Assembly (NCBI GenBank): GCA_023212695.1
Contig: JALCCG010000219.1
Coordinates: 1-35,933 of the forward strand
Length of the DNA stretch: 35,933 bases
Direction of reading: 5' to 3'
DNA from: Sporisorium sorghi
Lineage: Eukaryota > Basidiomycota > Ustilaginomycetes > Ustilaginales > Ustilaginaceae
The notes beneath the pieces were generated by a model. It made no database searches, was not told where the DNA came from, and saw only the letters and a program-made list of their open reading frames with translations. Shown in pieces: positions 6,062 through 33,017 of the stretch (position 1 is its first letter; the number at the start of each line of letters is the position of its first letter). Position numbers and translations under genes: made by a program.

Positions 6062-7036
6062 CTAGATCTGCCACTCGAACATCCTCTGCCCGCCGCTTCT
6101 GCCGGCAAACGCGCCGCTGCCCTCCGGGCCGTTGACGAGCGCCGCCTCGTAGCCGATCAACTTGAACGTGTCCCTCTCGACCATTTTGGCGCTGCCGTCC
6201 TTGCGCACCATGATGACGGTGCTTGTGCGCGTGGCGTACCAGTCCCTCTTCTCGCTGGAGAGCGGCAGTTCGAGTGGGGGGATGAGCACCGAGTGGCGGA
6301 GCTCGGCGCGATGGGCCGGTGCCGGGTTGGATGCGGTCCAGAGCAGGTCGAACAGTGCTTCTACCTTGTCACCTTCGGTTTGTGCGGAGGCGAGGATGGC
6401 GCGGAACGTGGTGGAGCCGGAGAGGACTTTGCTCCAGGGTTGGGTCAGGACGCTGTTCGACATGCCTCCGGGTGGTGGAGCTGTGTCCGATGTGGTTGAA
6501 GGGTGGGGTGTGAAGATGTCCGGGCTTCGGTCAGTGGCGAGGTGGCCGTCGGGGGTGCGGTTCGTGATGTACCCCACGACGGTGCCTTCTGTCGACAATG
6601 CGCCGACGAGCAGGTTGAACCCCGGATAGCGGTCCAGCTTCCTCGCCACCTTTCCCAAATACGCCTCAATCTCCGCGACTACCTCCTCCATCCCCCTGCC
6701 CCTCTCACATTGTGACTGTGCCACCAGCCAGTCCCTGACGAGCCGGCCGCGCGACTCGAACGCCTCCATCCCCGCCGGTAGTGGCGCCAAAAGCTCGGTG
6801 AAGTTCGTCAGCGTCGCAAAGGCACCGCTCCGCGTGATGCCCAGCCACGTGCCCCCGCCCGTCGCATCCCGTGCGCTCAGGATGGAGTGCTGCCCCGAGG
6901 AGGAGGAGGAGGAGGAGGAGGGCGAAAAGTCGTGCCATTCGGCAGGAAGTGTGGGGCGCGAGAGAAACTCGTCCCGGTTAGAGGCGATGACTAGGTCGTA
7001 GTGCGGGGGGTCGACGGCCCAGAATATCACGCACAT
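6062..7036 (-). CDS. TANGO2: TANGO2/NRDE-family protein
   Basis: 324 residues, single exon, stop TAG at 6062-6064. The N-terminus begins MCVIFW and carries the family-defining Asn-Arg-Asp-Glu motif at residues 20-23, followed by a GGGTWLG segment and a TNF motif. This is the signature of the NRDE/TANGO2 superfamily, which has an Ntn-hydrolase-like fold with Cys2 as the presumed nucleophile after Met removal. Animal TANGO2 is linked to mitochondrial and ER lipid or haem handling, but its biochemical reaction is unsettled. I chose the ATG at 7036 because it places Cys2 as the family expects. The frame stays open upstream and an in-frame ATG at 7243 would add 69 residues. A short poly-Ser stretch lies near residue 40. 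RPC11 lies upstream on the same strand. Confidence 0.88.
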   Translation of the reverse strand: MCVIFWAVDPPHYDLVIASNRDEFLSRPTLPAEWHDFSPSSSSSSSSGQHSILSARDATGGGTWLGITRSGAFATLTNFTELLAPLPAGMEAFESRGRLVRDWLVAQSQCERGRGMEEVVAEIEAYLGKVARKLDRYPGFNLLVGALSTEGTVVGYITNRTPDGHLATDRSPDIFTPHPSTTSDTAPPPGGMSNSVLTQPWSKVLSGSTTFRAILASAQTEGDKVEALFDLLWTASNPAPAHRAELRHSVLIPPLELPLSSEKRDWYATRTSTVIMVRKDGSAKMVERDTFKLIGYEAALVNGPEGSGAFAGRSGGQRMFEWQI

Positions 7037-7431
7037 CGTGCGCTCGCCTCTTCGAGTGAAAGGTTGGGGGACAGAGGGTGGTGGTGTGGCGTGAGGAAGT
7101 GATGTGAACGAGGTCGAGAAGCGAGGATCAAGGTTGCGTGTGGAGCACTTTTCAAGGGTCCAACCGTCGAAAGCCGGGTCAGCTGCGGCCGAGAGGAATT
7201 TCGCCCTTCGACACCACCGGCCTTCTACTTTACAGCTCACCATTACAACCTTGCCTGCCAAACACACCAGAATCGACACACGAACAGCTCAACACACACT
7301 CACACTCGACGCTGAAGCAGTAGCGAATGTCGTTGGTAACTAGAATTACAGATGTATGAGGATGTGCTATCGCACGGGTATACTGGTGCCAGCCGAAAGT
7401 GTGATGCGAGATCGAGGTTCGAGTGGTGAGC
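7037..7431. other. region between RPC11 and the TANGO2-like gene
   Basis: About 395 nt holding the RPC11 3' end and the promoter and leader of the TANGO2-like gene. The frame of the downstream gene is open back to about 7279, so part of this could encode an N-terminal extension. No separate gene is supported. Confidence 0.45.
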
Positions 7432-7958: not shown

Positions 7959-9056
7959 CCTGAAGCAGCGATGTAGCCGTAGAATCCTAGGGTGCTGTCA
8001 AGGTCTTGCCGATGTCAGAGGTAGTAGCGAAGGGTGAGCTGAATGGAGAGTGTGTGGAAGAGGATGAGCGCAGGAAGAAAGTTGAGAGAGAGTTCGGCTG
8101 GGAGAAAAAGTAGAGCTGTTTGCGTCTCCGAGTTCCGAGTTTTGTTTTTCAGTGTTAGACCGTGGGTGGGCGTGGTGGATCGGCCGGCGACTTTTCTTTG
8201 CGTGTGTGCGTGCTCCTTCAGCTGCTCCCATTGGGTGTAGCGCAAAGATCAACCGGCCGCTTCCTCCATGCTCACCTGCGATTCCACTTCAAACAGCAAT
8301 CGGATGCTCCACAGACGATGGCCATACGGGAAGGATCACTTCGGCGATTCTTCGCCGACAACGAGCAGTATCGCTGCGCTCTTCAGCAGGAGCTCTTCGC
8401 GGTGAGATAGATGTCAAAAGTCGGATGAACCGAAAAAGAGCAACGATCGGCACGAGACGAGAGGTGATTCATCCGTTTTATCCTTCCGATTTTCCTCTGG
8501 CTGTTCTTGTGCGTGTCATCATCGTTCGGACACAACGCGGGCACGGCTGTACTGCAGTGATGCGCGCCTTGACCACCCAAGAATAACCGATGCCAAGCCA
8601 CACAGCAACAGCAACAACGCAGCGCAGAATCTTTGGCGTGTGATTCGCTTGTACTTTTCACCTGGTGCCAGCGCCAGAGATGATCGCCCCTTGAGCTGTG
8701 GTGAGAAGTGAGAGTGAGATTTTGTGCCTGCTTGTCGGTCAATTCTTGGAATGAAGAGCGAACAGGCCGAGCGGGTGAGGGTTCGCTCAATCTCCGCTCT
8801 GCTCTGGGGCATTCCCCACTCTGACCACCGGGCCGGCCTGTTCCTCGACTCTTTGCGCTCTCTGCTTGTCTACGCATCCGTCTCCTTCCCCAGCACACTT
8901 CACCTTGCCTTCTCATCACGACCTTCCTTCGCGCTTCAACCCTCAAGCTGCCTTCTCGCAGGACATCTCTGGCTCCGTCATAGCGTAGATTGGCAACCCC
9001 CTGCATCCATCTCCACCTCAGCGCACTTGACCTCTCCGCACAGCATCTACAGCAAA
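7959..9056. other. divergent promoter region between RPC11 and GUT1
   Basis: About 1.1 kb between the divergent starts of RPC11 and glycerol kinase. The last 200 nt before 9057 are C/T-rich on the plus strand, as expected for the GUT1 leader. The frame of GUT1 stays open upstream to about 8724 with an ATG at 8751, discussed in the findings. No other gene or RNA is supported. Confidence 0.5.
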
Positions 9057-10589
9057 ATGCCGGATCTCGTAGGCTCGATCGACGCTGGCACCACCAGCGT
9101 CCGCTTCATGGTGTTTGACGAATTCGCCAAGGTGCAAGCGCTGCACCAGATGGAGTTCAACCAGTACTACCCGCATCCCGGTTGGCACGAGCAGGACGCA
9201 CACGAGATCATCGACTGCGTCTACGAGTGCATCGGCAAGGCGCTCGTCAAGCTCGAGCAAGGCGGTCAGTACAAGAAAACCGACGTCAAGGTCATCGGCG
9301 TCACCAACCAGCGCGAGACCACTGTCGTGTGGGACAAGAACACGGGCAAGGCGCTCACACGCGCCATCGCCTGGCCCGATGCCCGAACCACGCACACCAT
9401 CCGTCAGCTCGAAGCTAAGAGCGACAAGGGCGTCGACGCAGTCAAGGAGGAAACCGGTCTGCCGCTCTCCACCTACTTTGCTTCCGTCAAGCTGCGCTGG
9501 ATGCTCGACAACATCGACGAAGTGCGCAAGGCGCACGACGACAAGCAGATGCTCTTTGGCACCGTCGACAGCTGGATCGTCTACAATCTCACCGACAAGC
9601 AGGTGCACATCACGGATGCGTCGAATGCCTCGCGCACCATGTTCATGGACCTGCGCGCGCAGAAGTGGGACAAGAAGCTGTGCGACTTTTTCGGCATCGA
9701 CATGGCCATCCTGCCCGAGATCAGGAGCTCGTCCGAGGTGTACGGCAAAGTGTCGCACGGTGCGCTCAAGGGCGTCGAGATCGCGGGTATCGTCGGCGAT
9801 CAGATGGCGGCGCTGGTGGGCAACAAGTGCTTCCAGCCCGGCGAGGCGAAGAACACGTACGGCACGGGTGCGTTCCTTCTGTACAACACGGGCGACAAGG
9901 TTGTTTCCAGCAAAAACGGCCTGCTGTCGACGATTGCGTACAAGGCCGGACCCGATGCTCCCGTGCACTATGCGCTGGAGGGCTCGATCGCCGTGGCGGG
10001 ATCGGCGGTCAAGTGGGTGCGCGATAGCCTAGGTCTGATCAAGGAGGCCAGCGAGATCGGCGAGCTGGCGGGCCAGGTCGACGACACGGGCGGCGTCTAC
10101 TTTGTCACCGCGTTCAACGGCCTCTTCTGCCCCTACTGGGACGACACCGCTGCGGGCACCGTCGTCGGCATCACAGCGTACACGGACAAGCGCCACTTCT
10201 GCCGCGCGACGCTCGAGTCGACGTGCTACCAGACCAAGGCGATCCTGGACGCCATGTCCAAGGACTCGGGTGTCGCGCTCAAGGCGCTGCAGGTGGACGG
10301 CGGACTGACAAACTCCGATGTGGCGATGCAGATCCAGGCGGATATCTTGGGGATCAATGTGGAACGGCCCGAGATGCGCGAGAGCACTGCGCTGGGCTCG
10401 GCGCTGCTGGCGGGCTCGGCGGTGGGGCTGTTCGGGTGGGACATTGAGAAGCCCGAGACGCTGAGCAAGGTGAATACGGCGGGCAAGCAGGTGTTTGAGC
10501 CCAAGATTGACGAGGCGAAGCGCGAGAAGCTGCTGCACGGATGGGAGAGGGCGGTGGCAAGGGCCAAGGGGTGGAATGAGAACCCTTGA
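9057..10589 (+). CDS. GUT1: glycerol kinase
   Basis: 510 residues, single exon, stop TGA at 10587-10589. It phosphorylates glycerol with ATP to sn-glycerol 3-phosphate, the entry step of glycerol catabolism and a feed into glycerolipid synthesis. The FGGY-kinase fold is complete: the N-terminal phosphate-binding DAGTTS at residues 9-14, the glycerol-binding NQRET at 84-88, the catalytic Asp in GDQ at about residue 248, the YGTGAFLL loop, and the second FGGY signature around GGLTNSDVAMQIQ near residue 418. Length matches bacterial and eukaryotic enzymes. I start at the ATG in MPDLVGSIDAG because the conserved fold begins right there. An in-frame ATG at 8751 would add 102 low-conservation residues. 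No transmembrane segment is obvious. Confidence 0.96.
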   Translation: MPDLVGSIDAGTTSVRFMVFDEFAKVQALHQMEFNQYYPHPGWHEQDAHEIIDCVYECIGKALVKLEQGGQYKKTDVKVIGVTNQRETTVVWDKNTGKALTRAIAWPDARTTHTIRQLEAKSDKGVDAVKEETGLPLSTYFASVKLRWMLDNIDEVRKAHDDKQMLFGTVDSWIVYNLTDKQVHITDASNASRTMFMDLRAQKWDKKLCDFFGIDMAILPEIRSSSEVYGKVSHGALKGVEIAGIVGDQMAALVGNKCFQPGEAKNTYGTGAFLLYNTGDKVVSSKNGLLSTIAYKAGPDAPVHYALEGSIAVAGSAVKWVRDSLGLIKEASEIGELAGQVDDTGGVYFVTAFNGLFCPYWDDTAAGTVVGITAYTDKRHFCRATLESTCYQTKAILDAMSKDSGVALKALQVDGGLTNSDVAMQIQADILGINVERPEMRESTALGSALLAGSAVGLFGWDIEKPETLSKVNTAGKQVFEPKIDEAKREKLLHGWERAVARAKGWNENP

Positions 10590-20264: not shown

Positions 20265-23200
20265 TTACGCGCCTTCAGCCTCGGCCACCTCGGACAGCTC
20301 TCGTCGCGTTGTCGACTTTCTCCTCGCCACGCCAGCAGCAAGGGCTGGAGTCGCATCAGTGGGGGAACCAGCAGATGCCGATTCCTCTCCACTGTGCCTG
20401 AACCTCGACCCGCCTCCGCTGGCCAACAGGGGCGAAGAGGACGCCGATCCACCCGCCGCCGCCGACGCCAGCGCGGCAGACGACACGCGGTCCGCAGAGG
20501 GAGAGCTAAACGTAGCAGTGGCATTGGCGCCCGTCAGCGTAACTCCGCTCAGCTGGGACGTCAGCCCATCCGTATCCGCCGCGCCCGCCGTGGCAGCCAA
20601 ACCCGACGCCACCACCGGCTTGGTCGACCCACCACCACTGACCGGCGTGAAACTCGACCTCAAGTTCGTATTCGACCCCAACCGCCCCTTGGTCAGCCGC
20701 AGCGAGCCCGAGGAGTTGCGCCCGATCGTGCCCGCGCGGTGGAAGCCCGCAGGCGCACGGTGCCCTTCGCGCGACGCGATGCTGCGGCCCGTCGTGACAC
20801 CTGATTTGCGATCTTCGTCGACGCCATCGTCGTTGTGGATCGCAGTGTTGCCGGCCCACACGCTGGCGGAGGCCTGCGACATGTCCGAGGCGGTCGACTC
20901 GCCCCGCTTGTGCCCACCCAGCCCCAGCGCTGACGGCGAAGCAGGCGCATCGTGCAGACTCGGCAAGCGCCGACTCGCCACCGACGGCGACCGACTGGCC
21001 CGGCCCTCGCCCCCCTCGCGGCCCAGATCATCCACCAGATCCTGCACGCTGTTAACCTGCGCAACAAAGGTGATCTCGTCGAAAATCTCGTAGTAGTTCT
21101 CGATGCAGAACCGCACGATCGATCCCAAGCTCGTAGTACCCCCTGAGCTGTCGCTCGAGAGCGACGCTTTGCGCACCTTGGGCGACCTCGTCAGCGGCGA
21201 CGACTGCGCGGACTGTGCCGGTGTATTGGCCATCGACGCAATCCCATCCACCCGGCAGATGAGCACGTCCTTCATCGCATTGCCACTCGACACCAGGTTG
21301 GGCGCAATCACCGTCGCCAGGTTGGCCGCATCCATCTTGTTCTTGTCTCTGTACTGCGACACCTTGTGCAGCATCTCGAGCACGTAGCTCAGCAGGATGC
21401 CGCCGCACGGCGGGTCGATGGCGGGCAGCAGACGCGTGCGCAGGTAGTCGATCGTCTCGCGCGCCTGTGCGGCAGTCTGCTCTGCGTCGCCGTCTGCACC
21501 GGGCAAAGGAGGAGGCGGGCACGAGCGGATAAGCGGGTACGTGTTGGCCGTGAAGATGGGCCGAGGCAGCGATCGCAAAAACATCTTGAGCAGCACGGCG
21601 GGTATGTGCGGGTCTCGGTACTGCTCCAAGCTGACGGGGTGGCCGCGGTCGTAGCTCTCCTGTGCGGTCTTGAGCAGCGCCGACGAGGGCGATCGTCGAA
21701 AGATGCCCTCGACCTCGGCGGGGCGGATGCCGTCAAAGTCGCCCAGGATGGCCTCGACGCAGTCGCGCACTACGCGCGGCACACCGCCGCTCTCGGCCCA
21801 TACGCCCATCAGCTTCTCCAGTTCCACACCAAACACCTTCTCCGCATCAGGTTGGCCCGCCTCGGCCGAACCGCTCGGCGCTGCGGGCAGGCTGACGCGT
21901 TTCTCGTACCTCGCGTTCCACTGCAGCACCTCGGGCGGAATGTCGATCTGGGTGAGCGGCACGTGCTCCGCCAGCGCCGAGAGCGTATACAGCTGCGAGA
22001 CCTTTTTGGAAAACTTGGGCGAGACAAAGTAGGCGCCCGTGTTGACAAACTGCAGCAGCGAGCGCGTGAAGAACGTCGGGTGGACAATGTAGAGCTTCTT
22101 GAGGTTCTTGCGGAAGCGTCGGTCGAGTCGGCGGTAGGCGCGCCAGATCCAATTCCATCCTGGACGATGATGTCCGCCACCGGCAAAGTAGATGACGGTA
22201 TAATCGTTTTCGACGAAGAGATCCATGGTGTCCATGATGCGGTCGAGCAGCGCATCGTAGTCGACTTCATGGGGATCGGGAAGGCAGCAGGCGGCGAGCA
22301 CGACCATAGGTCGAGTCTCGTAGTCGAGCCCGGCTTGGAAGACGATGCGACGAACGTGCGCGTCGAGCTTTTCGGCGCGTGCGAGCGCCTCGGACCAGTT
22401 GGCTGCGGGCCGATACTGCGGCGTCGGGGATGGGGTTTGTACGGCGACGGGCATGTCTGCTTTAGGTGTAGTCGAAGGCCAGAGGAGGCCGGAACCAGAC
22501 CGGAGCTTGCCGACGGAAGGCTTGGATTGGAGTCTGGACAGCGTGGCGTATGCTCCTTTGGGGGACTCGTCCTTAAGGGAGGGCGATTCGGGAGGCAGAT
22601 CGTGGAAGTGACTCCGAGATGAGGATGGCGTTTGAGGAGGTGACGCAGACGCGGATGGCAGATCTTCAAAGATGCCGGCAAGTGGCCTGCGTCGTGGAGA
22701 GCTTGAAGGTGACCGCGAGGTTCCCGCTCTTTCGCGTCTCGTGTGCGTTGCTTGATTGGCGGATGCACCGCCGAGTTGGGATTGATCAACGTCGTCCTTT
22801 TCAGTGGCGTTAGCTGCTTCCAAAGGAGCAGAGATGCTGAAAGGGATGGCGCCTCTAGAGCGAGACGGCTTGGAGGAGGAAGGAGTCGCACGCGACGGTG
22901 AAGCAGACTTGCGCGACGTGGTTGTCTTGTTGCGAGCTGCAGCGGGTCCCCAACTTAGCAAGTTACCCCAACCACCTGGAATGGAAGGGCCAGGCGAATC
23001 GTTGTTCGGTTGAGGGGATGGAGGTGGTTGATGTCGAGAAGGACCACTTTCGCGTTGCTGTTGCTGTTGTTGCTGATTATAAGTACCCCAGAGCGAGGCA
23101 AAGACGTTGGAGAGTGTGCCCGTTGCTGTACGGTAGCCTGCTGCGGGTGTGTGCTGACCGGAAGGCGAAGAGATGGGAGTATTGAAACCCGAGGTGCCAG

Positions 23201-23276
23201 GAGAGTCGTGCTCCGGTTCGGCTCCGAGCTTGGAATGTGGTGGTGAGGAAGGCATGGTTGCGAGCAGAGCTGTCAT
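20265..23276 (-). CDS. CRAL-TRIO/BCH and RhoGAP domain protein (ARHGAP1/Ecm25-like)
   Basis: 1003 residues from the ATG at 23276, stop TAA at 20265-20267. Residues 1-290 are Ser/Pro-rich and disordered with a short polyGln. A CRAL-TRIO/BCH lipid-binding-like domain spans about 294-460, with VVLAACCLPDP, YTVIYFAGGGH and YIVHPTFF segments. A RhoGAP domain follows from about 482 to 680. It keeps the catalytic arginine in GIFRRSP (Arg527) and the NLATVIAPNL helix that positions the GTPase. The C-terminal 320 residues are Ser/Gly-rich and disordered. The arrangement matches p50RhoGAP/ARHGAP1 and yeast Ecm25, which stimulate GTP hydrolysis on Cdc42 or Rho to shape polarity and the cell wall. Which GTPase is targeted cannot be read from the sequence. 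The true start may lie in an upstream exon (see findings). Confidence 0.88.
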   Translation of the reverse strand: MTALLATMPSSPPHSKLGAEPEHDSPGTSGFNTPISSPSGQHTPAAGYRTATGTLSNVFASLWGTYNQQQQQQQRESGPSRHQPPPSPQPNNDSPGPSIPGGWGNLLSWGPAAARNKTTTSRKSASPSRATPSSSKPSRSRGAIPFSISAPLEAANATEKDDVDQSQLGGASANQATHTRRERAGTSRSPSSSPRRRPLAGIFEDLPSASASPPQTPSSSRSHFHDLPPESPSLKDESPKGAYATLSRLQSKPSVGKLRSGSGLLWPSTTPKADMPVAVQTPSPTPQYRPAANWSEALARAEKLDAHVRRIVFQAGLDYETRPMVVLAACCLPDPHEVDYDALLDRIMDTMDLFVENDYTVIYFAGGGHHRPGWNWIWRAYRRLDRRFRKNLKKLYIVHPTFFTRSLLQFVNTGAYFVSPKFSKKVSQLYTLSALAEHVPLTQIDIPPEVLQWNARYEKRVSLPAAPSGSAEAGQPDAEKVFGVELEKLMGVWAESGGVPRVVRDCVEAILGDFDGIRPAEVEGIFRRSPSSALLKTAQESYDRGHPVSLEQYRDPHIPAVLLKMFLRSLPRPIFTANTYPLIRSCPPPPLPGADGDAEQTAAQARETIDYLRTRLLPAIDPPCGGILLSYVLEMLHKVSQYRDKNKMDAANLATVIAPNLVSSGNAMKDVLICRVDGIASMANTPAQSAQSSPLTRSPKVRKASLSSDSSGGTTSLGSIVRFCIENYYEIFDEITFVAQVNSVQDLVDDLGREGGEGRASRSPSVASRRLPSLHDAPASPSALGLGGHKRGESTASDMSQASASVWAGNTAIHNDDGVDEDRKSGVTTGRSIASREGHRAPAGFHRAGTIGRNSSGSLRLTKGRLGSNTNLRSSFTPVSGGGSTKPVVASGLAATAGAADTDGLTSQLSGVTLTGANATATFSSPSADRVSSAALASAAAGGSASSSPLLASGGGSRFRHSGEESASAGSPTDATPALAAGVARRKSTTRRELSEVAEAEGA

Positions 23277-24327
23277 TGGAGGCGGCGGAGCAAGAGCAGG
23301 AGCTGTACATCCACCCACTTTCAGCGCCAAAAGCAGCCACAACCGTCCCGTAATCGATAAAGTCGAGTGTGCGGCGCTGGATGTATCGGGCGATGGTCGG
23401 GCTGACCTGTAAGAGCGACAAGGAGAGCGCGCAGGATGAGAATGTGGTGGGAAGAGCGAGCTTGCTAGACACGAGACCGAGATGCGATGCTCCCGTCAGA
23501 CGCAGAATGTGGAGCCGAGTGAGGATGCAGGAGGAGCAAGAAGCGGTAGAGATGCAGCTCTTTAAAAGGCTCCTTGCACATTCCAAGCCTCAAAAATGCG
23601 AGGCGGACCGACAAGGCAGACAGGCACGTTTCGATGCACAAGAGATGCGGCCGCCTCGCTGCGACTTTTGTGCATGTTTCAGTCGGTGCGAAAAAATTTG
23701 GGGGATGTGGGGCAGCAGAGCAGTCAACGCGCCTTGACGAGAGCGTGGAGCAGAGACTGAAAAAGAGGACCCTGAAATTTTGAGCTTGTCGGCGAGTTGA
23801 GTTTCTCTTTCTCCTCGACATGATCACACGCAGAGGAGCTGTTTCCACTCACACATATCTCACTCGGCGCTTATCACCTTGATCGGGCTATCCGTGAGGC
23901 TTGAGGTGGTCCGCTTTCTCACGGTCTCTGCCTGTCGTTCCGCGAAAAGGCTGCCTTTCGTCGCGGCTTGTCCGATGAATTCGAGGGTGAAAGCGATGCA
24001 GCCTCGAATGCTTTGTTGGGGCTGGCACTTGTGACCAAAGGAAAGAGGACATTGATGTCAATGAGAGAGGGAGGCAGCCTTGAAGAGGTTGTCGAAAGCT
24101 TTCAGGTCAAGAGCGAAACGGTCTCGTGATTCGGGCAAGACCAGTGAGAATCCATGTCATCGTCGTCAAAGGCTCAACCACAAGCAGCTCAGCTCCTGTC
24201 TGCTCACAGCTAACAGTCGAGATCACTATTCATGCTCAAGCGCTGGGCAGGCAGGCAGGCTGGCATCGCAAACAACCACGTGAGACAAGCTCAAACGCGC
24301 TCTTTCTCTCGTCAAGCTTCATACGCC

Positions 24328-27483: not shown

Positions 27484-28236
27484 ATGAAGCTGACACCAGA
27501 GCTTCTATCACGGAGCAGCTCGTCGATCAACACACTCGGAGACCGCGAACTCGATCTGCGCGGCCTCAAGATCCCAGCCATCGAGAACCTCGGTGTGACA
27601 CGCGATCAGAACGATGCGATTGACTTTACGGACAACGACATCCGCTTCCTCGGCAACTTCCCCCTCCTACGACAGCTCGAATCACTGCAACTGGCCAACA
27701 ACTTGATATCGCGCATCGACTCACGCATCGCCTTTTCGCTACCGGCACTGCACACGCTCAACCTGACCAACAATGCGATATCCGACCTCGCTGAGCTGGC
27801 GCATCTGAGCAAGTGCAGCCGGCTCGAGTATCTGTGTCTGATGGGCACACCGGCGAGCCGAGAAAAGCACTACCGCGAGTTTGTGATTTGGAAGCTTCCG
27901 CAGGTGCGCGTGCTCGACTACCAGCGGATACGCGACAAGGAGCGCGCATTCGCGAAAGAGCTCATGGAGACAGAGGACGGGAAAACGTCGGCATTGGCAG
28001 CAAGCATCTTGAGGAAAGCGGACGGTGGGGCGATGGACGTGGATGCGGATGCGGTCCAGGTGGGCAAGCAGAAGACGTTTGAACCCGGAAGACTCAATGG
28101 GTCGTCAAGACGCCTGTTGACGGCAGAGGAGCGCAAAGCCATCGAGGATGCGATCGAGAGGAGCGAGAGTCTGGAAGAGATCCGCAAGTTGGAAGAGCAG
28201 CTCAAGATGGGGCATACGTTTGTTGCGTCGTCGTAG
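27484..28236 (+). CDS. LEA1: U2 snRNP protein A'
   Basis: 250 residues, single exon. The N-terminus MKLTPELL and the RELDLRGLKIPAIENLG block are hallmarks of U2A'. Leucine-rich repeats follow (for example LESLQLANNLISRI and LHTLNLTNNAISDL) and close with the LRRcap-type KHYREFVIWKLPQVRVLDYQ segment near residues 128-148. The protein pairs with U2B'' on stem-loop IV of U2 snRNA and is needed for stable U2 snRNP in branch-site recognition. The C-terminal 90 residues are charged and end in a helical EERKAIEDAIERS stretch. Length fits the family (about 240-255). The start is supported by the immediate match of the N-terminus to homologues. Confidence 0.96.
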   Translation: MKLTPELLSRSSSSINTLGDRELDLRGLKIPAIENLGVTRDQNDAIDFTDNDIRFLGNFPLLRQLESLQLANNLISRIDSRIAFSLPALHTLNLTNNAISDLAELAHLSKCSRLEYLCLMGTPASREKHYREFVIWKLPQVRVLDYQRIRDKERAFAKELMETEDGKTSALAASILRKADGGAMDVDADAVQVGKQKTFEPGRLNGSSRRLLTAEERKAIEDAIERSESLEEIRKLEEQLKMGHTFVASS

Positions 28237-28664: not shown

Positions 28665-28748
28665 TGATTCGCTTTCGTTCTTCTTGAACTCAGGTTTGCT
28701 CCCATCCTCGCCACCACCATCATCCACTCTCCCAGCACCTTGTTCAAG

Positions 28749-31172
28749 ATGAGCTGCTGGACATCCTCAACGACAGCATCAGTGCGAGTGGCTGCACCTC
28801 GCCTGCTTCGTGCTCGCACCAACACCGCCATCCTTCCAAAGCAGCTGCTGTCCGCCGCCACACGAGCTCCCGTCGCCGCACTAGGATCCTCCTCAAGGAC
28901 TATCTTTTCATCAGCTCCCCGCAGCAACAGTGCGACTGCAGCTTCCAGTGCAGCTTCAAAGACCGTCTCTGGACAAGATCTTTCGATTGCGCTGGACGAA
29001 CACGGTCAGATCCCAGCAGCACCCTATTCGCATTTGCCACTCGCAGGCACCTCACCCTCCTACAAGGTTCACCTCATCGTTCACCCGTATGATCAAGCAC
29101 GACCTGTTGACACATGGCCTTCTCATCTCGAGTCTGTCTCGCCTTTTCTCTCCGAGCTCGAAAGCCGTGCGAAAAAGGGCGGCAGCCTCGAAGGGTACGG
29201 CATCTCGTTCTCGTCTGGTGACGCTCGTACTAACGCCGGTCGCGATGCGGCAGCGCTGAAGCCATGGGATCCGACCACCTCACGAATGATGCGTGCCGTC
29301 CCAAATTCGGCACAGGAGCAGGAGCAATTCGTCGTCTACGCTTACTCAACCAACGGCACCATGGCCAAAGTCGGCCCCGTCTCGCTCTCCACCCTCGATG
29401 CCGGCTCGTCCTTCCGACAGCGTGTCGACGACGCCCTTGCCTCTGCACAGCCTCAGACGGGTCGCGCAAAGCCGGGCGATGAGACGCACGTCTACGTCTG
29501 CACCCACGGCTCGCGCGACTGCCGCTGCGGAGTCGCCGGAACCGCCGTCTTTCAAGCACTGAAGGACGAGGTTCGCTCGCACCAAGCTTCCACCATCAAG
29601 ACCGGCAACGACGCACCCAAGAAGGTTCGAGTGTTCCCCATCAGCCACGTTGGTGGTCACGCGTGGGCGGCCAACGCGCTCGTCTACCCGCACGGCGACT
29701 GGTACGGCAACTTGCGCGTCACCGACTCGAAGCTGGTTCTGCGCGCCGCACTCTCGCCCGCCAGCTCGGTGCACGATTTGGAGGATCTGCGCGAGAGGCT
29801 CGTGCATTGGCCCAGGTGGCGTGGCAGGCTCGGACTCAGCAAGGCCGCTCAACGTGATCACTACGCAGAGTGGGGTCCTCCTACCATCAATGCCGCTCAT
29901 CTTACACCGAGGAGCAGAGGCATTGCCACTTCGGCCGCGCGTCCCAGCAGCAGTGTAATCGGTACGCTGTCTTCTGCGTTCTCGTCGCCATCTCTCGCCA
30001 AAGGTGCTTCTGTCAGGACGTACGCCACGGATGCATCTGACAGCAAGCCCGCGTCTACGGGCACCGACAAGAAACCGTCCGCTCGTATGGCCGCATTCCG
30101 AGAGAAGCTCGCCGCCGACCTCTCCATCGACGACTTTGCCGCGGGCGACGTCGATTCGATCATCACCTCCACCCCCGCCTCATCAGGGCGAGTGCAAATG
30201 GGGCGCACCAAAGACGCGCGTCTCCCCTCTCACCTCAAAACCAAGATCCCGACGGGTGCCAACTACACCCGTATCAAGTCGGACCTGCGCGGGCTGGGCC
30301 TGTCGACCGTATGCGAAGAAGCGCGCTGTCCGAACATCGGCGAGTGCTGGGGCGGCTCCGGAGGCAAGGACACTGCGACGGCTACGATCATGATTATGGG
30401 CGATACGTGTACGCGCGGCTGTCGGTTCTGTGCGGTGAAGACGAGCCGGACGCCTGCGCCGCTGGACGTGCACGAGCCCGAGAACACCGCCGAGGCGATC
30501 TCGCGCTGGGGGTTGGGGTACATTGTGCTGACCAGCGTTGATCGGGACGACTTGGCGGATGGCGGGGCGAGTCATATCGCGAGCACGATCAGCAAGATCA
30601 AGTTCAAGTCGCCCAAGATTCTCGTCGAGGCGCTGGTGCCGGATTTCTCGGGGGACACGGCGTGTGTCGAGACCATCGTGCGGTCGGGGCTGGACGTATT
30701 CGCGCACAATGTCGAGACCGTCGAGCGGACGACGCCGTTCGTGCGCGATCGAAGGGCCAAGTACCGCCAGTCGCTCGCCGTGCTCGCGCATGCCAAGAAG
30801 ACCTCGCCAGCGCTGATTACAAAGACGTCGATCATGCTCGGCTGCGGCGAGCAGGACGCCGAGGTCGAGCAGACATTGCGCGATCTCAGGCAGGCCAACG
30901 TCGACGTGGTCACGTTCGGCCAGTACATGCGCCCCACCAAACGCCACATGAAGGTCGAGGAGTACGTCTCGCCGGAGAAGTTCGAACATTGGCAAAAGAC
31001 GGCCGAGGAGTTGGGCTTCTTGTATGTCGCCAGTGGGCCGTTGGTGAGGAGCTCGTACAAGGCCGGTGAGTTTTTCATCGAGAACGTGCTCAAGCAGAGG
31101 AGGGCGATGGTGCAAGGGGTCGTGGATGAGGGCAAGATCAGTGTCGAGCAGGTTGGACGCAGTCGTGTGTAG
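28749..31172 (+). CDS. LIP5: AIM32-like [2Fe-2S] protein fused to mitochondrial lipoyl synthase
   Basis: 807 residues, single exon, first ATG at 28749, stop TAG at 31170-31172. Residues 1-75 are rich in Arg, Ser and Ala with few acids, a typical mitochondrial presequence. About 85-385 is a sucrase/ferredoxin-like (AIM32) domain with thioredoxin-like fold: C-x8-C at Cys251/Cys260 ([11 protein letters not shown]) and HVGGH at His300/His304, the ligand set for a bis-His [2Fe-2S] cluster. About 388-447 is a linker rich in Ser, Ala and Arg that itself looks like a presequence. About 485-800 is complete lipoyl synthase: auxiliary cluster CX4CX5C at Cys522/527/533, radical-SAM CX3CX2C at Cys554/558/561, and the RSSY motif at 767-770. 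The second half inserts two sulfurs into octanoyl groups on E2 and H proteins of 2-oxoacid dehydrogenases and the glycine cleavage system. Both halves appear functional. The gene fusion is seen directly. Its meaning is inference. Confidence 0.93.
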
Positions 31173-31372: not shown

Positions 31373-32776
31373 CTAAAACGACGTACGCGAATCAAACAGC
31401 ACGGAGGACGACGACGCCTCGGACTCGGGAAGCGATATCAGGCTCTCCACCGACACCTCTTCTCCACTCGTCCACCTTGGACTCGAGAACAGCGCACTCG
31501 ATCCGTCCTCGCCCTGCTGCTGCTGCGACACCCAAGCGACCGACAAATCCAGCCCTCTCCCATCCTCCCCCTCCCTCTCCGCGCGCTCGAAACTACACCA
31601 CCCATCGACCTCAAACCCGACCGCGCTCCTCACCCTCTCCCTCACCTCCTCTGCCCCCGCGCCCCTCACTTTAACCGTCCAGACCGCCTCGTCCTCCAGA
31701 TCCACCTCGTCGACCAGCCCGGCGTCCCACAGCACGCGCAGCACCGCCTTCGCCCTCAAGTACCGCCGGTGCTCGTACTCCAGCACGGTCTGGGCGTCCA
31801 GCAGGAAAGCCTGGTCGAACAGGCGCGGGTGTGCCGAGGTGGGTGCGGTCGGGTGTCGGCCGCCGAGCGCGTCGTAGAGCGCGTCGATGAGGCGGATTGT
31901 CACTGTACATGTTGCTGGGTCAGAGAGGGGAAGGTGCGGGAACTGGAAGTAGAGGTTCATGTCCTCTGCACCGGCTTCGCTTTCAGTAGCACAGTGGCTA
32001 GCGGTGCTCTTCTGATCTACCTCACGCTGGCGCGTGGCGAACAGCAGCGCGTTCCTGGGCAGCTTCGCCCCTCCAAACATCCCACCGGTCCTCCTCGCCC
32101 CCACACCACTCTCCACCTTACCCGCCACAACCGCCGGCTTTCTGTGCACCATCCTCGCCTTGTCCTCCATCTCCGCGCCAACCAGCCGCAGCGCAAGCGG
32201 CGCATCCACTACCAGGTTATCGAACACCCTCGCTCCGCCGGAGGAAAACTTGCGCGCAGGCTGCAGCCCAACGCCTCCTCGCAGGGGCGACAGGCTGAGC
32301 TGGCCGGCGGCGGGCCGAGCGCCGATACCGCTGAGGGCCCCACGGGCGAAGCTGACGCTGGGCCGGTTGAGCGTTGCATAGGCGGTGGTGGGGGTGGTAC
32401 GGTGGGAAGTGGAGCGGAATGTTTCGATTGCGCCGCGGAGCAGCGGTGAGCGCACGGTGTATGTGGTGGCACGCTTGATGAGTGCAGAGTACAGCGCGTG
32501 CGGGCTGCTCAAGCGGTGATGTGCGAGTCGGACCGCGCGCGTTGCGGTCGAGAGCAGCCGCTTGAGGAGTGCGCTGAGGGTGCCGTGACTGCGGATGGCG
32601 CGTGTGGTAGAGTGGATGCCTCTGCTGGACGCACCCCGCGTGAAAGCGTGCGTGGACGAGGCGGAAAAGCTGCGAGTGTGGGGCGTGATGACGCTGGTCG
32701 GACGAGGACGCGACCTCGCCTTGCCCGCGGCATGCATCACCGCGCGCAGGCGACCTGGCGATGGCCGCAGTATCAT
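31373..32776 (-). CDS. Arg/Ser-rich, probably mitochondrial protein of unknown function
   Basis: 467 residues from the first in-frame ATG (32776), stop TAG at 31373-31375, single exon. The first 200 residues are strikingly rich in Arg, Ser, Thr, Ala and His and poor in acids, with presequence-like strings such as TRSFSASSTHAF and later QPARKFSSGGARVF near residue 180. A mitochondrial location is therefore likely. The C-terminal half turns acidic and helical, with LLDAQTVLEYEHRRYLRAKAVLRVLWDAGLVDEVDLEDEAVW around residues 320-365. No known domain, metal site or membrane helix is recognised. The gene converges on the lipoyl synthase fusion gene (200 nt apart) and diverges from the LC8 gene across a 241-nt shared promoter. 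Confidence 0.75.
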   Translation of the reverse strand: MILRPSPGRLRAVMHAAGKARSRPRPTSVITPHTRSFSASSTHAFTRGASSRGIHSTTRAIRSHGTLSALLKRLLSTATRAVRLAHHRLSSPHALYSALIKRATTYTVRSPLLRGAIETFRSTSHRTTPTTAYATLNRPSVSFARGALSGIGARPAAGQLSLSPLRGGVGLQPARKFSSGGARVFDNLVVDAPLALRLVGAEMEDKARMVHRKPAVVAGKVESGVGARRTGGMFGGAKLPRNALLFATRQREVDQKSTASHCATESEAGAEDMNLYFQFPHLPLSDPATCTVTIRLIDALYDALGGRHPTAPTSAHPRLFDQAFLLDAQTVLEYEHRRYLRAKAVLRVLWDAGLVDEVDLEDEAVWTVKVRGAGAEEVRERVRSAVGFEVDGWCSFERAEREGEDGRGLDLSVAWVSQQQQGEDGSSALFSSPRWTSGEEVSVESLISLPESEASSSSVLFDSRTSF

Positions 32777-33017
32777 TGTGTCGTTGGTATCGTAACCTGG
32801 AGTGGTGGTGGTCGGGTGGCAAAAATCCAGGGTCCAGTTGCGCACCGTTGCAGCTCGACGTGCATCTGCGCACAGCGCCCTTTTCTCTCGTACGATACAC
32901 GCGCTTTTCCCTTCGAGGTGTTGCTCAGCGCTTTTCTCCGAGTGTTGCTCTTCCCGCACCCTCCCTCCCCTTCCTCTCCATCCCTCATCCTCACCAACCC
33001 CCTCTCACCACTCAAAA

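Follow-up and report, generated by a model that had tools for sequence, protein, structure and literature searches.

Why does a single reading frame of Sporisorium sorghi join an Aim32-type [2Fe-2S] protein to a lipoyl synthase (Lip5), and do the two act as one chain or as separate proteins? The frame lies at 28749-31172 on the forward strand of contig JALCCG010000219.1 (assembly GCA_023212695.1), of which the 35,933 nucleotides analyzed are called the window here. Based on sequence comparisons, we consider it probable, at roughly two chances in three, that the product of the frame is a tandem precursor for mitochondria, imported once and split by the mitochondrial processing peptidase (MPP), and then by Icp55, into Aim32 and Lip5. 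Outside its linker, the frame has the following features.

28749..31172, forward strand: putative Aim32-Lip5 tandem precursor, 807 codons plus stop, 86.7 kDa, by translation; at least 20 relatives have the same domains
28749..28907, forward strand: predicted N-terminal mitochondrial presequence, residues 1-53, cut after RTIF, by motif match only
29040..29765, forward strand: Aim32-type thioredoxin-like [2Fe-2S] domain, residues 98-339, Pfam Suc_Fer-like
29499..29528, forward strand: cluster cysteines C251 and C260 (C-x8-C), both invariant in a 94-row alignment
29646..29660, forward strand: cluster histidines H300 and H304 (H-V-G-G-H), H304 invariant and H300 at least 90% conserved in the 94-row alignment
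30024..31169, forward strand: predicted mature lipoyl synthase, residues 426-807, 41.6 kDa, by domain and equivalog matches
30312..30347, forward strand: auxiliary-cluster cysteines C522, C527 and C533 (C-x4-C-x5-C), by motif
30408..30431, forward strand: radical-SAM cluster cysteines C554, C558 and C561 (C-x3-C-x2-C), by motif
31047..31058, forward strand: RSSY motif, residues 767-770, by motif

The first-pass annotation of this DNA had described an uninterrupted 807-codon frame, and the frame indeed runs from ATG 28749 to TAG 31172 with no internal stop; given the base composition, the probability of such an open run by chance is ~6e-11. The closest in-frame stop on the 5' side, at 28665, is separated from 28749 by a stretch free of in-frame ATGs, and the first 73 amino acids contain no acidic residue. 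Pfam assigns three domains, all over their cut-offs: Suc_Fer-like (residues 98-339), LIAS_N (443-527) and Radical_SAM (548-713). The pairs Cys251/Cys260 and His300/His304 named in that annotation were found at those positions as C-x8-C and H-x3-H. Their spacing of 39 residues is within the family definition of the Aim32/Apd1 ligand motif, C-x8-C ... H-x-G-G-H with 24-75 residues between (PMC11138216; literature is represented here and below by partial texts of the papers). Among the fold families listed, the Aim32 half matches the thioredoxin-like [2Fe-2S] ferredoxin fold, and, as judged from its residues, it is a predicted [2Fe-2S] cluster binder via C251/C260/H300/H304. An extra cysteine, C258 (29520-29522, in D-C-R-C), is invariant in the same 94-row alignment of Aim32 homologues and stands outside the four described ligands. 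A presequence-like N-terminus and the database name AIM32 of some relatives point toward Aim32 and not cytosolic Apd1, the tree having been built without yeast Aim32 or Apd1. This half shares with S. cerevisiae Aim32 and Suc_Fer-like proteins the C-x8-C, the H-x3-H with HxGGH, a conserved Trp after the histidines and a presequence; it bears a Lip5 tail, whereas yeast Aim32 is a stand-alone protein.

The other half is a full lipoyl synthase with both cluster motifs and RSSY, again as the first reading of the sequence had it. The whole-frame protein scores 429.7 bits against the equivalog TIGR00510 lipA (cut-off 310.25), C-x3-C-x2-C, C-x4-C-x5-C and RSSY are all present, and residues 453-784 align with solved mitochondrial lipoyl synthases (E about 1e-131). 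We take C522/C527/C533 to be ligands of the auxiliary cluster and C554/C558/C561 those of the radical-SAM cluster, and we assume that the cluster-ligating serine of LipA sits in RSSY. A serine ligand of the LipA auxiliary cluster has been described (PMC11138216). Like mitochondrial Lip5/LIAS, this half is complete in its catalytic part, with RSSY and the motifs of both clusters, but it forms the C-terminal half of a putative tandem precursor and has no ATG of its own ahead of the presequence site in Sporisorium sorghi. Assignment to the bifunctional lipoate-protein ligase/lipoyl synthases (NF053790) was rejected at 325.3 bits versus a cut-off of 800, with a match to profile positions 322-604 of 606 only; those proteins are likewise a lipoyl synthase fusion, but their partner is a ligase, unlike Aim32 here.

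How widespread is this architecture? At least 20 further database proteins carry all three domains among the best 120 of 461 matches. Fungal sources (11/20) are Sporisorium, Ustilago, Melanopsichium, Moesziomyces, Pseudozyma flocculosa, Thecaphora frezii and Violaceomyces palustris; one three-domain record is listed as Cichorium and is presumably a contaminant. The three species looked up belong to Ustilaginales, Urocystidales and Violaceomycetales, all three of them orders in the Ustilaginomycetes. Lip5 without Aim32 is found, among the best 120 of 7998 matches, in Tilletiaria (Exobasidiomycetes), Malassezia, Sympodiomycopsis, Tilletia and others, where the taxonomic placement of all unfused lineages except Tilletiaria is our assumption. 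The fusions all fall on one side of a single branch, both in the Lip5 tree (support 96/89; 19 of 47 rows; P0014, with a cut C-terminus, left out) and in the Aim32 tree (support 100/100; 18 of 44 rows; P0014 and P0019 left out), a pattern compatible with one origin rather than proof of it, and long branches were flagged among the other rows. Mapping the fusion from each half, a check that the first-pass annotation had proposed, thus places it in three orders and in one group in either tree: judged by these records, the fusion is genuine and conserved, and one origin fits both trees. No description of an Aim32-Lip5 fusion was found in titles or abstracts of the open-licence PMC literature, among the matches listed. 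All counts of fusions below refer to the usable ones, P0001-P0020, with the window's own included, and leave out P0021 and P0022.

What does Aim32 carry where it is not joined to Lip5? The best 120 of 241 matches to the Aim32 half include unfused relatives from Malassezia, Tilletiaria, Ceraceosorus, Sympodiomycopsis, Tilletiopsis, Pucciniomycotina, Agaricomycetes and a chytrid. In at least 50 of the 119 unfused rows among these matches, the Aim32 domain precedes an adrenodoxin-type motif, C-x5-C-x2-C...C. Of the 69 rows without the motif, 64 have fewer than 400 residues and seem to be fragments or short proteins of Agaricomycetes; the other five have at least 400, and four of these we take, by reading, to be cut, merged or interrupted. 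Pfam Fer2 scores over its cut-off in 4/10 scanned proteins, the others being recognized by motif only and P0189 having none, and a PDB search with the P0122 module hit adrenodoxins and bacterial [2Fe-2S] ferredoxins (best E 9.3e-15). These Aim32-ferredoxin proteins (Malassezia, Exobasidiomycetes, Pucciniomycotina) share with the fusions a homologous Aim32 domain and, in the Ustilaginomycotina-like ones, the same junction pattern, but end in an adrenodoxin-type ferredoxin and not in Lip5. The tail WG[PG][PGS]x4Ax3PxxR is present in 20/20 fusions and, among 43 unfused rows examined, in 30/30 of those in which WG.. is retained; the fusions and the Ustilaginomycotina-like Aim32-ferredoxin proteins match through this shared tail and diverge right after it. 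The architecture is not mentioned in titles or abstract openings of the open-licence PMC literature, among the matches listed. An adrenodoxin-type module moved elsewhere was not found in Sporisorium sorghi, where the own-genome ferredoxin search gave one Yah1-like match, which we take to be Yah1 by its C-terminal signature. A single origin may be placed in the ancestor of the sampled Ustilaginomycetes, where a Lip5 precursor would have replaced the ferredoxin module at the C-terminal end of an Aim32-ferredoxin gene.

Six Aim32-like proteins of Malassezia and Ceraceosorus (P0129, P0133, P0139, P0141, P0146 and P0162) bear the database name lipoyl synthase or lip5-lipoic acid synthase. A lipoyl synthase domain is listed for none of them, and P0129 and P0139 were re-scanned; the label probably spread to them from the smut fusions.

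The question of one chain or two turns on the linker, which has three parts.

29883..29921, forward strand: junction tail, residues 379-391, part of WG[PG][PGS]x4Ax3PxxR (from residue 375), common with Aim32-ferredoxin proteins
29922..30014, forward strand: putative decayed Lip5 presequence remnant, residues 392-422, hypervariable, without acidic residue or Met here
30015..30029, forward strand: predicted internal MPP/Icp55 site, R423-T-Y425 followed by A426-T427; R, A and T are the same in 20/20

The motif R-x-[YF]-A-T occurs in 20/20 usable fusions, where shuffled linkers expect 0.8/20; these shuffles, like those below, preserve composition and not relatedness. Mean conservation in the 19-row alignment is 0.92 for the site, compared to 0.47 for the preceding and 0.45 for the following stretch, and the rest of the linker, from the Aim32 tail to the Lip5 body, is hypervariable and changes in length. 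Lip5 proteins unjoined to Aim32 have R-x-[LFY]-[AS]-[ST] in 141/178 N-terminal regions (shuffling expects 9.4), after 24/202 rows without usable anchor or start were skipped, and a few of the 178 kept have other extra domains. The distance from site to core has a median of 68 residues in unjoined Lip5 and ranges from 50 to 76 in the fusions (21 rows, P0241 included). As a negative control, the site is present in 0/27 Aim32-ferredoxin linkers. It corresponds to a known cleavage pattern, in which MPP cuts after R-X in R-X-F/Y/L followed by A/S and Icp55 removes the bulky residue (PMC8847149). The segment before the site is acid-poor and mildly basic, with a low hydrophobic moment: the 28 residues up to the Arg hold 2.9 basic residues with a moment of 0.31 in the fusions (n = 20), compared to 4.25 and 0.49 in unjoined Lip5 (n = 134). 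The N-termini of the fusions resemble normal presequences (5.53 basic residues per 40 amino acids, no acid, moment 0.50; n = 17). In 15/20 fusions, the stretch from the Aim32 end to the site contains no Met, and the in-frame Mets here are 1, 180, 181 and 205, then 447.

Together, a single frame for two complete proteins with a canonical MPP site between them suggests the following course. The N-terminal presequence would import the entire Aim32-Lip5 chain, and MPP in the matrix would remove this presequence and also cut the old Lip5 presequence site between T and Y of R423-T-Y, after which Icp55 would trim the tyrosine. The products would be a free Aim32-type [2Fe-2S] protein of ~40 kDa and a free Lip5 from ~A426 of ~42 kDa, in equal amounts; the mitochondrial location of both halves is deduced from presequence-like features and relatives. 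The fusion would have swallowed an entire Lip5 precursor including its presequence, of which selection retained the cut site. The sequences themselves show the frame, its domains, the fusion in three orders, its grouping in both trees, the conserved site and the shared junction; MPP cutting at the linker site and the order of evolutionary events we infer. Since the cleavage site of the Lip5 presequence is retained in 20/20 usable fusions, the mature proteins are probably separate, and since the upstream targeting features decayed while the site stayed, the site would be there for cutting and not for targeting. Production of Lip5 from an internal start as well would call for an intact targeting helix, and the helix looks decayed; if the chain were left uncut, both site and helix would be expected to drift. 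A kept site with a lost helix is what internal processing predicts.

Precedents for such a course exist. Yeast Arg5,6 is a tandem precursor that MPP is reported to split after import (PMC8847149; PMC8835746), and internal presequence-like segments with MPP sites are described for Atp25, S. pombe Etp1, Rsm22-Cox11 and others (PMC8847149). Like precursors of the Arg5,6 kind, Aim32-Lip5 has two matrix proteins per frame, an N-terminal presequence and an internal canonical MPP site; it differs in its partners, in an internal targeting helix that looks decayed so that only the cut site is conserved, and in that its cutting is predicted. It would thus be a new member of the MPP-split tandem precursors, with a new protein pair and a decayed internal targeting signal. 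If cut as predicted, this precursor with a lost targeting signal and a kept site would be a natural experiment on the requirements of MPP.

Would Aim32 then serve lipoate synthesis? Human lipoyl synthase needs the [2Fe-2S] ferredoxin FDX1 (PMC10470009; PMC12855868). Because Aim32 joins either a ferredoxin or Lip5, and FDX1 serves lipoyl synthase, the two kinds of Aim32 fusion point to a common module with ferredoxin and lipoyl synthase, a pattern that is suggestive only. By a weaker inference, co-supply would matter because Aim32 would serve lipoate synthesis, either passing electrons or guarding or restoring the sacrificed cluster. In the most specific form of this reading, Aim32 would be a dedicated lipoate-synthesis partner. 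In the relatives sampled, Pucciniomycotina and non-smut Ustilaginomycotina, it would form an Aim32-adrenodoxin relay that supplies the clusters of lipoyl synthase with electrons or protects them, and in Ustilaginomycetes the ferredoxin would have been swapped for an MPP-released Lip5 (1:1); this form, like the functional link itself, we hold to be unlikely. The first-pass annotation had taken the fusion as a strong hint of a functional link by cluster re-supply, electron delivery or redox protection. The Aim32-ferredoxin fusions back such a link independently, but a single tethered enzyme is disfavored by the cleavage site kept in 20/20. The conservation of that site, the ferredoxin that relatives have at the same junction and the spread over three orders lay beyond what the first reading could see. 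What Aim32 does is, according to PMC8482512, not well understood, and a role as lipoate-synthesis partner, if true, would place this family in a pathway. The tandem gene in three orders and the ferredoxin fusions of sister lineages name one testable pathway for Aim32 and fungal Lip5, which would cover the electron supply of Lip5 and the restoration of its sacrificed cluster.

A number of observations speak against cleavage of the precursor or against the lipoate role. The fusion moment of 0.31 is below that of the segments' own shuffles (0.378), i.e., a poor amphipathic helix precedes the site; as a low moment could weaken recognition by MPP, the decayed helix cuts both ways. A Met precedes the site in 5/20 fusions, where a separate start is possible. 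P0241 is a 416-amino-acid smut-like Lip5 that starts at a Met inside a linker of this kind, one containing ARTYAT; it could be a stand-alone Lip5 with a separate start or a cut open reading frame. All five named Malassezia Lip5 rows (P0253, P0257, P0258, P0265 and P0267) are without the strict motif and have, by eye, R-x-[IL]-H-[TI] instead, so the ancestral site is not visible in every near relative. In P0021, the 21st three-domain row, the cut site is absent, its linker being read as out of frame. Finally, yeast Aim32 is reported to be a redox quality-control protein of the matrix and intermembrane space, and AIM32 to be non-essential in yeast but needed at 37 °C on respiratory media (PMC8482512). 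From this requirement at 37 °C, growth at 30 °C follows by implication; yeast Lip5 would then have no strict need of Aim32, which would be an accessory factor for it at most.

The same yeast literature feeds the alternative that survives best: cutting takes place, but Aim32 and Lip5 are paired by accident, two unrelated matrix proteins having been joined by a chance rearrangement and retained as cleavage restores both. As the cutting step is common to both explanations, this one overlaps with ours, and we rate it a serious contender at somewhat less than even odds. Composite precursors such as Rsm22-Cox11, whose parts we judge functionally unrelated, are listed in PMC8847149; the yeast protein has been linked with redox quality control and import instead of lipoate, and words beginning with 'lipo' number 0 in the available text of PMC8482512. 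Accident is harder to reconcile with relatives in which Aim32 is joined at the same junction to an adrenodoxin-type ferredoxin, the kind of protein that, as FDX1, serves human lipoyl synthase.

A clearly unlikely alternative is an uncut bifunctional enzyme whose [2Fe-2S] domain acts on lipoyl synthase in cis, by electron delivery or by protection. The window frame and at least 20 three-domain database proteins are, as modeled, single polypeptides, the long flexible linker would permit contact, and the FDX1 dependence of the human enzyme (PMC10470009; PMC12855868) fits a [2Fe-2S] donor. Yet an uncut enzyme gives no reason for a site kept 20/20 amid a hypervariable linker, versus 0/27 in Aim32-ferredoxin linkers. 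An AlphaFold2 model of the whole chain (19-row alignment) reached a predicted local distance difference test score of 45, too poor to reveal a domain interface.

Two independent products, with an internal promoter, alternative splicing or an internal start yielding a separate Lip5 with its own presequence, we regard as very unlikely. A separately made Lip5 would likewise need a retained cleavage site, non-ATG starts in the linker are possible in addition to the Met of 5/20 fusions, and P0241-P0243 are closely related Lip5-only database entries. Nonetheless, there is no in-frame ATG between codons 205 and 447 here, 15/20 fusions have no Met from the end of Aim32 up to the site, and the targeting helix looks decayed. 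A scan with one strict donor consensus gave no intron candidate in the linker, and the sole candidate (30662-30854) lies inside Lip5 and breaks the frame. Of the Lip5-only entries, P0242 begins past the cut site and P0243 just ahead of the catalytic core, so that both look like truncated gene models. With no stop codon left for Aim32, this protein would be made only in joined form, unless from a truncated mRNA.

An assembly or annotation artefact is negligibly probable: the assembly is fragmented (469 contigs) with an apparent bacterial contaminant, and other fungi have Lip5 models joined to unrelated neighbors, but at least 20 further three-domain records exist, the junction pattern recurs in 20/20 usable fusions, and the frame has no stop and its linker no Lip5 start Met, unlike the Rhodotorula model P0053.

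Such joined models deserve a mention of their own. In Rhodotorula, the Lip5 models P0046, P0052 and P0053 have an MT-A70 domain attached; of these, P0053 keeps an internal Lip5 start Met and looks like a merged gene model, while P0046 and P0052 have no such Met. The Agaricomycete Lip5 models P0044, P0064, P0095 and P0119 carry ribosomal S28e (PF01200), apparently at the C-terminus, as a merged model or a real fusion.

Does the genome hold other copies of either half? Six-frame profile searches ignoring introns were run on the assembly of 23.2 Mb in 469 contigs, and they found no further Suc_Fer-like gene. A single other lipoyl synthase scored over the family cut-off (contig C309, 46% identity); it was set aside as a second fungal copy, as the contig reads as a bacterial contaminant. 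Its neighbors on C309 are M23 peptidase-, YutD- and NAD kinase-like, named by reading open reading frames without a family search. A weak LIAS_N match on C47 (16 bits) was under the cut-off. The first-pass annotation had asked for stand-alone AIM32 or LIP5 genes, and no fungal one was found in this assembly besides the fusion. Because the sole other copy lies on a bacterial-looking contig, the lipoyl synthase of Sporisorium sorghi most likely derives from the fusion frame, as far as a six-frame search of a fragmented assembly indicates.

On the 3' side of the fusion, a 528-amino-acid frame (31373-32959, reverse strand) has no Pfam match at E 0.001. Directly 5' of the fusion lies an LRR_9 leucine-rich repeat gene (27484-28236, forward strand); in P0022, an Aim32 part is joined to an LRR_9 protein, probably in a chimeric contig of adjoining genes. 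Elsewhere, the window encodes a TANGO2-like protein (6062-7279, reverse strand), an FGGY carbohydrate kinase (8724-10589, forward strand) and a CRAL-TRIO plus RhoGAP protein (20265-23342, reverse strand).

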